A stretch of 64,000 bases of DNA from an uncultured Lachnospiraceae bacterium (lineage in GTDB: Bacteria > Bacillota > Clostridia > Lachnospirales > Lachnospiraceae). The stretch covers positions 1-64,000 of the forward strand of contig CACZBW010000013.1 of the NCBI GenBank assembly GCA_902779575.1, written 5' to 3'. Position 1 is the stretch's first letter, and every line of letters begins with the position of its first letter. The notes below the pieces were generated by a model that had not been told where the DNA came from, ran no database searches, and saw nothing but the letters and a program-made list of their open reading frames with translations. Shown piece by piece: positions 20,191 to 25,094 of the stretch. Made by a program: the position numbers and the translations under genes.

Positions 20191-20367
20191 GACAGTCTGC
20201 AGCCTGCTGTGCGGAGAGCCGTGAACAGTGTCAGCAGTAAGGGCCGGCTTCCGGCGCGGACTGCTGCCTGACCCTGCATGTTCAGCCGGGGCCGGCTTCA
20301 GACAGAATTCGGCTGTGTACAGTCTGCCGGGGAGGCAGCGCAGCGTGTACGGAATGGAGTAGAGATT

Positions 20368-22698
20368 ATGAAATTATATGACGGCGGCGTATATCTGGTA
20401 AATGGAAACCGGATCATTCCGGACGGACCGGACGCATCTGCGATTGCAGAGCGGGAAACAGGTCTTTCGCTTTCCAGGCAGGAGGCCAGGAAGCAGACGA
20501 TGGCCTGGGAGATCCTTCATGCCCACAATCGTTCGGCGGACGAGGAAAAACTGCAGATTTGCTTTGACAAGCTGACCAGCCACGATATCACTTATGTGGG
20601 TATTATCCAGACAGCGCGCGCTTCCGGTCTTGAGAAATTTCCCATTCCCTATGTGCTGACCAACTGCCATAATTCCCTGTGCGCGGTCGGAGGTACGATC
20701 AATGAGGATGACCACATGTTCGGCCTTTCCGCCGCGAAGAAGTACGGCGGAATCTACGTGCCGCCCCACCAGGCTGTCATCCACCAGTTTGCCCGCGAGA
20801 TGCTGGCAGAATGCGGCGGCATGATCCTGGGATCCGACTCGCATACCCGCTACGGCGCCCTCGGCACCATGGCTGTGGGAGAAGGCGGCGGCGAGCTGGT
20901 CAAGCAGCTCCTCAGACAGACCTATGATATCGATATGCCAGGCGTGATCGGCATTTTCCTGACCGGGGAGCCGGTGAAGGGCGTCGGCCCGCAGGACGTT
21001 GCCCTGGCGATTATCGGGGAAGTGTTCAGCAGGGGCTTTGTCAAAAACAAGGTTATGGAATTCGTGGGTCCCGGCATCTCGGCCCTGAGCGCGGACTTCC
21101 GCATCGGCGTGGACGTGATGACGACAGAGACGACCTGCCTGAGCTCCATCTGGAGAACGGATGAGAAGATCCGGGAATTCTATGAGATCCACGGAAGAGA
21201 AGAGGCCTACAGGGAGCTGAATCCCGGAAGGACCGCCTATTATGACGGTATGATCGAGATCGATCTTGGCTCAATCCGGCCTATGATCGCCATGCCTTTC
21301 CACCCGAGCAATGTCTATGCCATCGAAGATGTGCAGAAGAACCTTGCGGACGTGCTCAGTGAAGTGGAGAAGCGGGCGAAGGTATCCTTTGGCGACCGGA
21401 TTGCATACAGTCTGCAGAGCAGGATCCGTGACGGGAAGCTCTATGTGGATCAGGGCATTATCGCGGGCTGCGCGGGCGGCGGATTTGAAAATATCTGCGA
21501 CGCCGCCGATATCCTGAAGGGTCATTATATCGGAGCCGACGCGTTTACCCTGAGCGTATATCCGGCCTCCATGCCGGTTTACATGGAACTGGTGAAAAAC
21601 GGGAAATTTGCGGACCTGGTTGAGTCCGGCGCAGTGATTAAGACCGCCTTCTGCGGTCCCTGCTTCGGCGCGGGCGACACGCCGGCCAACAACGCATTTT
21701 CGATCCGCCACTCGACCCGGAACTTCCCCAACCGTGAGGGCTCCAAGGTCCAGAACGGACAGATTGCTTCCGTCGCCCTGATGGATGCCCGTTCGATCGC
21801 CGCCACGGCCGCCAATAAAGGCTTCCTTACTGCTGCTGACCAGCTGGAGTTCAGCCTTACGTCGCCGCGCTATTTCTTCGACAGCAAAATCTACGAAAAC
21901 AGGGTATTTGATTCGAAGGGGCAGGCGGATCCCGCCGCGGAGCTGGTATTTGGCCCGAACATCAAGGACTGGCCGGCCATGGACGCTCTTCCCGAGAACC
22001 TTCTGCTGAAGGTTGTGTCGGAGATTCACGACCCCGTGACGACAACGGATGAGCTGATTCCTTCCGGAGAGACGAGCTCCTTCCGCTCCAATCCGCTCGG
22101 CCTCGCCGAATTTACCCTCTCACGCAGGGATCCGGCTTATGTCAGCCGCGCGAAAGAGGTGCAGAAGGCGCAGACAGCGATCCGGGCAGGCGAAGACCCG
22201 GTCGGCGCCCTGGCGGAGCTCGGCCCGGTCCTTGCGCTTCTGGACGAGAAGCTCCCGGGCTACCTGGAGAAGAAAAATGATCCGGCTCTTTTCGGCGTGG
22301 GGTCCACGATTTTCGCGGTAAAGCCGGGCGACGGATCCGCCCGGGAACAGGCGGCTTCCTGCCAGAAGGTGCTTGGCGGCTGGACCAACATCGCTTTCCA
22401 GTATGCGACCAAGCGCTACCGCTCCAACCTGATCAACTGGGGCATGCTGCCGCTTCTGATTGAAGAAGGCGAGCTTCCCTTCGCGAACGGCGACTGGATC
22501 CTGCTTCCCGATATCCGGGCCGCGGTCCGGGAGAAGAGGGATAAGATCATGGGATTCGTGGTCAGGGAGAAGGAGCTTAAGCAGATCTGGATGACCCTGG
22601 GCGAGCTGACCGGTCACGAGCGCCAGATTATTCTGGACGGATGCCTGATTAACTTCAACCGGGAGATGAGCAGGAAGGCGGAAGAAGGCAAAGACTGA
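20368..22698 (+). CDS. aconitase-family hydratase
   Basis: A 776-residue Fe-S hydro-lyase of the aconitase superfamily, of the kind usually annotated only as hydratase (YbhJ-like). The N-terminus ([19 protein letters not shown]) differs from housekeeping aconitases. Conserved parts include [36 protein letters not shown] and the cluster-binding pair in [15 protein letters not shown], plus a C-terminal swivelling domain. The true substrate is unknown; a citrate/aconitate role is possible but not shown. I use ATG 20368; the frame is open 30 codons upstream without aconitase similarity. No operon partner. Confidence 0.85.
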
Positions 22699-22793: not shown

Positions 22794-22822
22794 TTGACAA
22801 ATAGCTTTGCCACTGCTAATAT
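22794..22822 (+). promoter_or_regulatory. consensus promoter of a non-coding transcription unit
   Basis: TTGACA (22794-22799), exactly 17-bp spacer, TAATAT (22817-22822). No coding region follows in this direction before the terminator at 23878-23912. Confidence 0.8.
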
Positions 22823-22828
22823 ACAAGC

Positions 22829-23912
22829 ATCAGAAAACACAAGCGTTTCAAAACAGACTTTCAGAAGTTTTTCCGTATCGGAGTTGAAAGAATTGTTTTG
22901 AAAGTGTTTTCAAAAAATAACGGCGACAGACATCAGGATATTCGCAGTTTCAAAGCAGCCGGCCATCTGTTTCGTGTCCTGCGCAGACTGGCCAAGTACA
23001 TTCAGATCCATAAGATTTTCAGATGATGAAAATCAGTTAATGAAAATTCTTTCAGATTTGAAAAAGTACTCAGAGAGAAAGGCGTCCAGGAGAGTGCAGA
23101 TAGACTTATGACAGATCTGCAGCTCTGAACCACGAAAATACCGCAGAAGCCGGTGAACTGAATTCTCCGTTTATCGTCTGAAGCTGAGAGAAAGGAGTCT
23201 TGGTCCAATGGACAGGTTAGAAACACCATTCGAAGTCGTTCAATATAACAGTGGCAAGGTGGAAGGTCCCTGCGGAAGAGACTTCTATCATCGCTCATTC
23301 TGAAAGAATTCGACAGATTAGTTCGAGAATCGGAGAGAAGAGGCAGAAAAGCGAAAGAAGCGCCTATCACCTGGTTATATTGAACCGGATCATTGCCACA
23401 CAGAATAGAATATGAATTCATTTGTAACAGTTATAGACATGTTCATTGATGACAAACAGTTGTTCATTGAAGAATTTCGTTGATGACGAATACATTTGTT
23501 CATAAAGAATGAGGATTTCAGAATCCGTATCTGACGAGAAAGGATACGAAGAGCGATCTCCAATTCATATAAGTTTAGTTATCTGAAATACTTAAAATTA
23601 TAATAAAGTTTGACATAGAAGGGTCCCGGCAAGACCCGCAGCGTAAAGAAGAAGAACCGGTATTGAAGAAGTATTTGTTCGAAGGATGAAGAAAACCAGA
23701 AAGAACGCTGAGTATGTTCCGTCATTTAGAAACATGATATATGAACGGTATGACGGAAGCCGATAATTTTAAGAATGATGTTTTATAATAGAAAACATCT
23801 TAAGATACAGACGCAGGGCAAAAGATCTCCGATTGTTTGATTATATAAAATTAAAACTGAATAAAAACTAAATACTACAGGCCGGTGAAGCAAAATCACC
23901 GGCCTGTTTTTA
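22829..23912 (+). ncRNA. candidate large structured non-coding RNA (about 1.08 kb)
   Basis: The 1.3-kb gap between the hydratase and pdxK is AT-rich, purine-rich on the top strand and has no believable gene; the only open frame over 100 codons runs antisense (23002-23421) and is unlike any protein I know. It is framed by a consensus promoter and a strong terminator. Inside are many perfect hairpin arms: 22846-22855/22894-22903 (10 bp) with an inner stem 22858-22863/22885-22890; 22961-22969/22984-22993; 23014-23021/23027-23034 (8 bp); 23096-23101/23115-23120; 23513-23517/23522-23526; 23526-23531/23543-23548; 23621-23625/23633-23637; 23719-23725/23750-23756 (7 bp); 23777-23784/23792-23799 (8 bp). 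TGTTCATTGA-type direct repeats occur at 23440-23505. I do not recognise it as RNase P, tmRNA, 6S, OLE, GOLLD or ROOL RNA. A weak internal promoter (TTAGTT...TATAAT, near 23577-23606) could yield a shorter form. Confidence 0.55.
23878..23912. terminator. strong terminator, probably bidirectional, between the ncRNA candidate and pdxK
   Basis: CAGGCCGGTGA (23878-23888) and TCACCGGCCTG (23896-23906) pair perfectly over 11 bp and are followed by TTTTTATTT. The leftward side is less T-rich but may also serve the convergent kinase gene. Confidence 0.9.
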
Positions 23913-23992: not shown

Positions 23993-24832
23993 TTACAGAT
24001 TCCGCACCTTGTCCACCAGCATGGGAAGGGTATGCTCAAAGTCTACGCCGTAGCGGTCTTCGTGTCCGAAGATACCGTAAGTGTAGGCGACGGTCTCTTT
24101 TGTATAGTCGCAGGCGATGCGGAAAGCGTCCGCAACAGGAAGTCCCCGTGTGATCGCTCCGACGACGGTGGAGGCAAAGATGTCGCCGGTACCGTGGTAG
24201 CTGGTCGGGACATGGTCTGTATAATACTCAAAAGTCTCGCCGGTTCTGCTGTCCAGACCCATGACCCCGACCTTTCCCGGCGTGAAGGAAACGCCTGTCA
24301 GGACGGCATATTTCGGACCGAGAGCGGCGAGCGCGCGGAGCATCTCCATGATGTAGGCACGGTCGTATTCCGTCTTGTAGGGAAGGCCGGTCATGAAACT
24401 TGCTTCCGTCAGGTTAGGCAGTATGATGTCAGCCTTGCTGCAGAGTTTGGTGTTCTCTTTGGCGTAGGCTTCATCGAAAGCCGGATACAGTTTCCCATTG
24501 TCCGCCATGACCGGGTCGACCACGACAACCGTATCTTCCGAGCGGAAGCGGTCGAAGAAGCCGGATACGAGGCTGATCTGCTCGAAGGAGCCGAGGTAGC
24601 CTGTATAGATGGCGTCAAAATGGAAATTCTCCTTTGCCCAGTGTTCCTCGATCGGCAGAAACTGGTCCGTCAGATCCTTGCAGGTAAAGTTCCTGAACAT
24701 GGTATGGGTGGACAGTACCGCCGTCGGAAGAATCGCGGTTTCCACACCCATGGCGGAAATGATGGGCAGCGCCACGGTCAGAGAGCATTTGCCGATGCAG
24801 GAGATATCCTGGATAGTTACAATTCGTTTCAT
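23993..24832 (-). CDS. pdxY: pyridoxamine/pyridoxal kinase
   Basis: A 279-residue ribokinase-superfamily enzyme that phosphorylates pyridoxal or pyridoxamine in vitamin B6 salvage. The N-terminus (MKRIVTIQDISCIGKCSLTVALPIISAMG) and the STHT segment are typical of this kinase; VVDPVMADNG and the C-terminal HGTGDIFAS anion-hole motif (catalytic Asp) complete the site. I start at ATG 24832, behind GGGGG; the frame is open 15 codons upstream but not conserved. It is divergent from a MocR-type regulator, which supports the B6 assignment. PdxK versus PdxY subtype is uncertain. Confidence 0.88.
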   Translation of the reverse strand: MKRIVTIQDISCIGKCSLTVALPIISAMGVETAILPTAVLSTHTMFRNFTCKDLTDQFLPIEEHWAKENFHFDAIYTGYLGSFEQISLVSGFFDRFRSEDTVVVVDPVMADNGKLYPAFDEAYAKENTKLCSKADIILPNLTEASFMTGLPYKTEYDRAYIMEMLRALAALGPKYAVLTGVSFTPGKVGVMGLDSRTGETFEYYTDHVPTSYHGTGDIFASTVVGAITRGLPVADAFRIACDYTKETVAYTYGIFGHEDRYGVDFEHTLPMLVDKVRNL

Positions 24833-25094
24833 GATGAACCCCCAAAAAAGCTTCTTCCGCAGCCGCATTTCCTGCAACGCCTCCGCTGTCCGGAGGACTG
24901 CTCTGCAGAGAGATCCGATCCTCCCTCATTCTGCGCTGCTGATTATTCCGCCGCGCATGGAGGCCGGCTGCTTCCGAATTATTATTGCTTCTCCAAGTAT
25001 ATAGAAATGTGATATTATAAAAAGTATCAGAAACAGAAAATTTGACAAGGTCAGTTTGACGGGACTTATCCCGGCGAAGCGATGAGGAAATACA

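Follow-up and report, generated by a model that had tools for sequence, protein, structure and literature searches.

Why should a bacterial family keep a short reading frame open within a folded RNA, though the encoded peptide does not seem to matter? This question is raised by a candidate transcription unit of about 1.08 kb, located in the genome of an uncultured Lachnospiraceae bacterium. It lies between two metabolic genes in the window, which denotes the whole stretch of 64,000 nucleotides that was analysed. A preliminary description had regarded the unit as a candidate large non-coding RNA of unrecognised class. Comparison with the sequences of relatives identifies it as one copy of a conserved RNA class with a pseudoknotted fold backed by covariation, a conserved promoter and an ORF that is kept open. 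Few classes of large structured RNA are known in bacteria, and for most of them no function has been assigned. The present class is found in many bacteria of gut and rumen, in about one in five of the Lachnospiraceae genomes sampled, and as cultured gut commensals are among its carriers it is accessible to testing. Annotation of small ORFs and annotation of RNAs can each overlook such a mixed object.

The unit begins with a promoter-like sequence and ends at an intrinsic terminator, both of which had been described beforehand and are present: TTGACA-17-TAATAT agrees with the consensus at 10/12 positions, and a perfect 11-bp stem (23878-23888/23896-23906) is followed by TTTTTA. Taken alone the promoter-like site is not significant, as shuffles of the region contain 3.7 such sites on average; its weight comes from the members of the class discussed below. 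The reported contrast in base composition was found too, with a GC content of 0.38-0.40 inside the unit compared to about 0.55-0.62 in the flanking genes. The unit is devoid of long ORFs. The claim that no frame holds a credible protein did not last: an ORF of 31 codons (23208-23303) lies behind the Shine-Dalgarno sequence AGAAAGGAG, and its frame is conserved throughout the family. The unit and its neighbours comprise the following features:

20278-22698, + strand: aconitase-family gene, upstream neighbour (context, outside the RNA); also adjoins the RNA in 8/74 members
22794-22822, + strand: promoter TTGACA-17-TAATAT; 10/12 consensus matches, counterpart in 74/74 members
22826-23188, + strand: 5' extension of about 0.36 kb; from the six-sequence alignment
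23189-23197, + strand: Shine-Dalgarno sequence AGAAAGGAG; conserved in A3
23208-23303, + strand: small ORF of 31 codons plus stop, MDRLETPFEVVQYNSGKVEGPCGRDFYHRSF; frame conserved, amino acids apparently unconstrained
23238-23249, + strand: 5' strand of helix P1, GTTCAATATAAC, within the ORF; compensatory changes
23251-23256, + strand: 5' strand of pseudoknot helix PK, GTGGCA, within the ORF; pairing across members
23268-23274, + strand: 5' strand of long-range helix D, CCCTGCG, within the ORF; permutation test
23328-23336, + strand: 5' strand of long-range helix E, AATCGGAGA; permutation test
23374-23385, + strand: 3' strand of helix P1, GTTATATTGAAC; compensatory changes
23394-23399, + strand: 3' strand of pseudoknot helix PK, TGCCAC; pairing across members
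23526-23548, + strand: hairpin CGTATC-TGACGAGAAAG-GATACG with the conserved loop TGACGAGAAA; from the alignment, loop kept and stem varying in the genus
23777-23799, + strand: hairpin GATGTTTT/AAAACATC close to the 3' end; from the alignment
23812-23818, + strand: 3' strand of long-range helix D, CGCAGGG; permutation test
23826-23834, + strand: 3' strand of long-range helix E, TCTCCGATT; permutation test
23877-23907, + strand: intrinsic terminator stem-loop; perfect 11-bp stem
23993-24877, - strand: phosphomethylpyrimidine/pyridoxal-kinase-like gene, convergent downstream neighbour (context)

All fold elements of the class (P1, PK, D and E) are carried by the copy in the window. The segment 23186-23912 folds 3.5 standard deviations better than its shuffles (z -3.5, 20 shuffles), as does the shorter relative L006 (z -3.9, 100 shuffles). 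Energy folding alone misses the covarying core, and the structure was not taken from it. Direct repeats had been noted as well and exist at 23440-23473; in the six-sequence alignment the sister species shares this block, and the remaining four sequences show no evident counterpart. Among the same six sequences the 5' extension could be aligned with the sister species (L002) only, and further genus loci that were inspected have short 5' parts, unlike the extension of about 0.36 kb found here. Lying between the promoter and the Shine-Dalgarno site, the extension (22826-23188) may be an inserted domain.

We determined the distribution of the unit by DNA and covariance searches. Among 61 genomes, the DNA search recovered nearly the whole unit in the sister species (86% over query positions 11-1212 of 1231) and pieces of the core in four further members of the genus. 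Short promoter-only matches in the DNA search (G019, G021, G023, G025) were set aside. A covariance model of the 5' module built from 6 sequences (R1) matched 50/397 family genomes at E ≤ 0.01. A second model built from 42 members (R2) matched 92/397 sampled Lachnospiraceae genomes at E ≤ 0.001 and 80/397 at E < 1e-6, 12 of the 92 being weaker than the latter value. In the genus of the window 15/19 genomes were matched by R2 at E ≤ 0.01. The conservation in relatives by which the preliminary description had wanted its proposal to be judged is thus seen at the level of both genus and family. Faecalicatena, Dorea, Schaedlerella, Extibacter, Muricomes, Sporofaciens, Merdimonas, Mediterraneibacter and Blautia are member genera among the matches listed, and the cultured strains Schaedlerella arabinosiphila DSM 106076, Extibacter muris DSM 28560 and Muricomes intestini DSM 29489 are carriers.

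In the order sample 12/325 genomes were matched, every one within Lachnospiraceae, and outside the family weak matches occurred in 3/196 genomes of the class sample and 2/199 of the phylum sample. Inspection of the order, class and phylum samples, with L198, L200 and L202 left out, revealed no credible member outside Lachnospiraceae. Two loci from outside the family were rejected, one as the start of an XRE-like gene (L199) and one as the start of a GIY-YIG-like gene (L201; gene types assigned by eye). Seven viral pattern hits were rejected as well, the best having an R2 E value of 0.13. A search of the 397 family genomes for a 33-base pattern with 3 mismatches was discarded, yielding mainly chance hits, and control patterns matched many genomes too.

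Usually one copy is present per genome. G154 showed two matches, one of them at a contig end, and G123 contains two divergent copies (G123:C7:23812-24008 and G123:C12:353108-353290), of which the C12 copy is L070. The locus L143 (rumen MAG RUG11089) is the same RNA copy as that of the genus member G018. The member set was drawn from 80 of 101 stretches found by pattern search. Of these 80 loci, 24 were dropped for lack of the other anchors (R2 gave none of the 24 an E value better than 0.011), 13 near-identical loci were dropped as duplicates, and L062 and L110 were left out. Among the resulting 74 distinct members is L082, where P1 was anchored wrongly and entered the count as unpaired. A larger set of 82 consists of the 74 and eight genus loci, L222 being left out.

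The core of the predicted fold is a pseudoknot. Helix P1 consists of nine pairs formed by CAATATnnn inside the ORF with nnnATATTG. Over the 74 members it pairs in 97.9% of cells, and its variable positions 7-9 are 95.9% paired compared to a shuffled mean of 67% and a maximum of 73% (1000 shuffles), values that like the permutation statistics for D and E carry no correction for relatedness. When P1 was considered together with an inner helix in 42 sequences, 10/14 pairs change on both sides. Out of five measures, four were reached by 0/500 shuffles and the fifth by 6/500, and slid partners pair at 26-36% against 93.8% for the true ones. PK begins 1 nt past the 5' strand of P1 and mostly 5-11 nt past its 3' strand, crossing P1 in the manner of an H-type pseudoknot. 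It occurs as GTGGTA/TACCAC, GTGGCA/TGCCAC or AAGGCA/TGCCTT, and as GCGGCA/TGCCGC in L214 and L215. The PK search took the best of 54 positions without a control of its own; seven of the 74 members lack the six standard pairs (L004, L058, L079, L082, L083, L087, L104), the pairs were found only at an implausible place in L073, and in L218, L219, L220 and L223 only the inner part of PK pairs cleanly. A hairpin like GATGTGTAAAGAAACATC follows the 3' strand of PK in L066, L067, L077, L100 and many others, with a conserved loop GTRAAGAA on a varying stem.

Two further helices, D and E, cross one another and connect the 5' module with the 3' end of the RNA. The 5' strand of D is a GTTCCYG-like stretch of the ORF, and its partner is usually located 22-28 nt before the partner of E, or 13-15 nt in the genus of the window. 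Examples of D are TGTTCCTGTG/CACAGGAACA, GTTTCCTGC/GCAGGAAAC, ATTCTTGCG/CGCAAGAAT, AAGTTCCC/GGGAACTT and CCCTGCG/CGCAGGG. The core of E is TCGGAG/CTCCGA, replaced by TCGAAG/CTTCGA in L082 and L090 and by CCGGAG/CTCCGG in L150, and its flanks covary. In a test with 2000 permutations, covering the 58/82 members with both anchors, the mean helix score of D with its true partner was 7.64 (permutation mean 5.64, maximum 6.18). For E, which was located by its core motif so that the test rests on the flanking pairs, the score was 7.89 (mean 7.21, maximum 7.57). In the other 24 members E or its partner is not recognisable; these include the Blautia-type subgroup, in which neither E nor its partner was found. 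The preliminary description had also looked to covarying stems for support, and compensatory changes are present in P1, the inner helix, D and E.

The hairpin at 23526-23548 varies in stem sequence between members of the genus and keeps its loop TGACGAGAAA. A hairpin with this loop is positioned 3' of the core in the genus of the window and before the ORF in L060 and L075, as if it were a movable module. In place of the hairpin near the 3' end (23777-23799) relatives use other stems, e.g. GGTGCTGT/ACAGCATC in L004; the stem in L006 has one mismatch.

A Shine-Dalgarno-like site and a start codon precede P1 across the members, the start being ATG in 31, TTG in 35 and GTG in 8 of the 74. The ORF covers the 5' strands of P1 and PK in 73/74 members and has a length of 15 to 34 codons, except for two codons in L070 and L194. 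Translation through the core is therefore dispensable in some members. In a Blautia-type subgroup the stop codon follows directly on PK, before D is reached. The distance from start codon to P1 is 24, 27, 30, 33 or 36 nt in 73/74 members of the smaller and 81/82 of the larger set, the class of L070 (23 nt) being the single departure from a multiple of three. At least 16 changes of this distance occur on the best tree built from the sequence downstream; many branches of that tree are weakly supported, and the well-supported ones force fewer changes, e.g. 6 for the 24-nt class. All three remainders occur in the spacing of 24 chance pattern hits. Stop codons before P1 amount to 1/518 codons in the ORF frame compared to 57/444 and 17/444 in the two others, and over P1/PK to 0/518 compared to 1 and 63 of 444, the counts being uncorrected for relatedness.

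Changes at codon positions 1, 2 and 3 numbered 51, 60 and 58 in 35 non-overlapping pairs. In these pairs the synonymous fraction was 0.33, with a blind expectation of 0.26 and a wrong-frame control of 0.31. An earlier set of 27 pairs gave 46, 46 and 41 changes and 13 synonymous versus 78 other codons. No excess of synonymous change was found, outside the helices either, so that constraint on the amino acids is not seen. Since spacing is kept in frame and stops are depleted, yet codon position and synonymous change show no bias, selection acts on the open frame across the core's 5' strands and does not appear to act on the peptide itself.

We propose that a strong sigma-70-type promoter drives the RNA as an independent transcript. 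In its fold P1 is crossed by PK, and the crossing helices D and E join the 5' module with the 3' end. A ribosome would start on the small ORF, whose codons double as the 5' strands of P1 and PK and, in the majority of members, of D. Because the ORF holds these strands, a translating ribosome and the folded core would exclude each other. The purpose of the ORF would be to have the RNA gated by ribosome engagement: when initiation on the ORF slows, in starvation, in stationary phase or under translation inhibition, the knotted, presumably active form would accumulate and then act in trans on a partner. The unit is presumably transcribed and its ORF presumably loaded with ribosomes; gating, which we infer from this geometry, trans action and the signal are proposals. 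An RNA class gated by ribosome engagement and acting in trans is in our view the likeliest reason for the constraint on the frame, with about even chances of being right. The complete picture, in which a multiply pseudoknotted RNA with a core made from codons of an ORF translated for the act itself serves as a read-out of ribosome engagement and has its effect in trans, is a serious possibility that we hold somewhat more tentatively. The two-codon ORFs in L070 and L194 count against gating, as does the Blautia-type ORF that stops before D. If gating proves true, it would provide cells with a new way of sensing translation by RNA, and the RNA may be one that ribosomes switch.

The same RNA class might carry its ORF merely as an aid, the function of the RNA being unrelated to the state of translation. 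Ribosomes could shield the 5' part from nucleases, sustain transcription, or hold the 5' strands until their 3' partners have been made. An open frame without peptide constraint is accounted for equally well in this manner, and the 5' strands covered by the ORF must wait hundreds of nucleotides for the partners of D and E. Such an aid, which we consider possible rather than probable, leaves unexplained by itself why the ORF extends past P1 and PK instead of stopping earlier.

It is rather improbable that a micropeptide encoded by the ORF does all or half of the work, as in the dual-function RNAs RNAIII, with hld, and SgrS, with sgrT. The strong Shine-Dalgarno site and the conserved frame would suit a peptide, and QYxSG-like residues recur in it. 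However, these residues are located in the P1/PK strands, and the third residue of QYx changes together with its pairing partner and can be V, I, N, E, D, G or another. The residues at the C terminus vary between clades (ISLN or ETFT), since the frame in which one RNA element is read is not the same. The spread of ORF lengths (15 to 34 codons, 2 in L070) and the missing synonymous excess also argue against a working peptide, and a search of Pfam and NCBIfam with three of the peptides gave no family match.

A cis-acting element of a neighbouring gene, being either the 3' part of the aconitase-family mRNA or the leader of the gene behind, is very improbable. An aconitase-family gene is indeed found directly upstream in 8/74 members and on both deep branches. 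However, 74/74 members have a promoter with 10 or more of 12 matches and a 17-nt spacer in the 520 nt preceding P1, compared to 1/59 control windows from the same loci; TTGACA is exact in 72/74, and a terminator of its own follows where one was called. The neighbour in the window is convergent. Elsewhere the neighbours vary by clade and include secreted beta-propeller-like, MetG-like, BioY-like, TPR-like and other genes (names by eye). Since all 74 members have the promoter and the neighbours differ between clades, the RNA probably is a unit of its own. In all 74 units A exceeds T and G exceeds C. The preliminary description had considered the RNA longer than OLE, GOLLD and ROOL, which holds for this copy of about 1.08 kb and not for the family: in the 34/74 members in which both ends were called, the terminator rule calling these only, the median length is 596.5 nt (range 362-1095), and three genus relatives with both ends called measure 533-594 nt.

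The loci with an aconitase-family neighbour, L058, L081, L104 and L139 among them, span the branch of the window and the Blautia-type branch. As this neighbour occurs on both deep branches, the site behind the aconitase-family gene suggests itself as the ancestral place of the RNA. Some aconitases bind RNA.

Chance retention of promoter and terminator in a decayed gene region, previously named as the main alternative, would fit the low GC and the missing long ORF and is practically excluded by family-wide conservation with compensatory changes, that is, by covariation.

No match to Rfam 15, which includes OLE, GOLLD, ROOL and raiA, was obtained over the window at gathering score. Permissive thresholds, applied to the unit together with 5 loci of the genus and 12 of the family, gave only weak, chance-like snoRNA-, sRNA- and miRNA-like hits. 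A search with RF03072 (raiA) yielded none in the unit's own genome, the model being silent in all 14 control genomes also. With compensatory changes in P1, the inner helix, D and E the class is of the kind of large structured bacterial RNAs; of the initial designation the large structured RNA stands, and purely non-coding does not, given the frame-conserved ORF in the folded core. No RNA described so far is known to us in which the codons of an ORF, translated for the sake of translation, make up the core. Staphylococcal RNAIII, of about 0.5 kb, has a promoter and a terminator of its own as well as a short ORF, and the present RNA resembles it in this layout only: here the peptide is unconserved, and the ORF itself provides the pseudoknotted core. 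The short in-frame ORF and the ribosome-binding site of RNAIII/SgrS-type dual-function RNAs are found, whereas the constraint on amino acids is not.

One survey reportedly comprises 224 candidate structured RNAs. Another lists 3161 candidates from human microbiomes (PMC8040213); no paper describing the present RNA was found in the literature searched, and pieces of it may be contained in the supplementary tables of that survey. OLE RNA, of about 600 nt, is likewise a large RNA of Bacillota with extensive structure that acts as a unit of its own, and its P6 is described as holding an SD/anti-SD-like duplex that binds bS21 (PMC12054373). Helix E often holds GGAG/CUCC, which recalls the P6 duplex. 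E departs from GGAG/CUCC in L082 and L090, and the likeness is therefore a lead only and not a feature shared with OLE. The layout with an ORF in the core is found here and is not described for OLE in the accessible part of PMC12054373. GOLLD and ROOL are also large, with several pseudoknots, long-range pairing and unknown function, and they are described as encoded by prophages or phages, often near tRNA islands (PMC12286853). In contrast, no tRNA was found within the 64-kb window, the seven pattern hits contained no credible match on a viral contig, and the flanking genes are metabolic. The raiA motif RNA, or ModT, is a conserved structured RNA of Bacillota that acts in trans and can serve as a model for the possible role of an abundant RNA like the present one; an ORF is absent from its description in the accessible part of PMC11706538 and present here. 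As far as we know the RNA class is undescribed, and in kind it is closest to OLE, GOLLD, ROOL and ModT/raiA.
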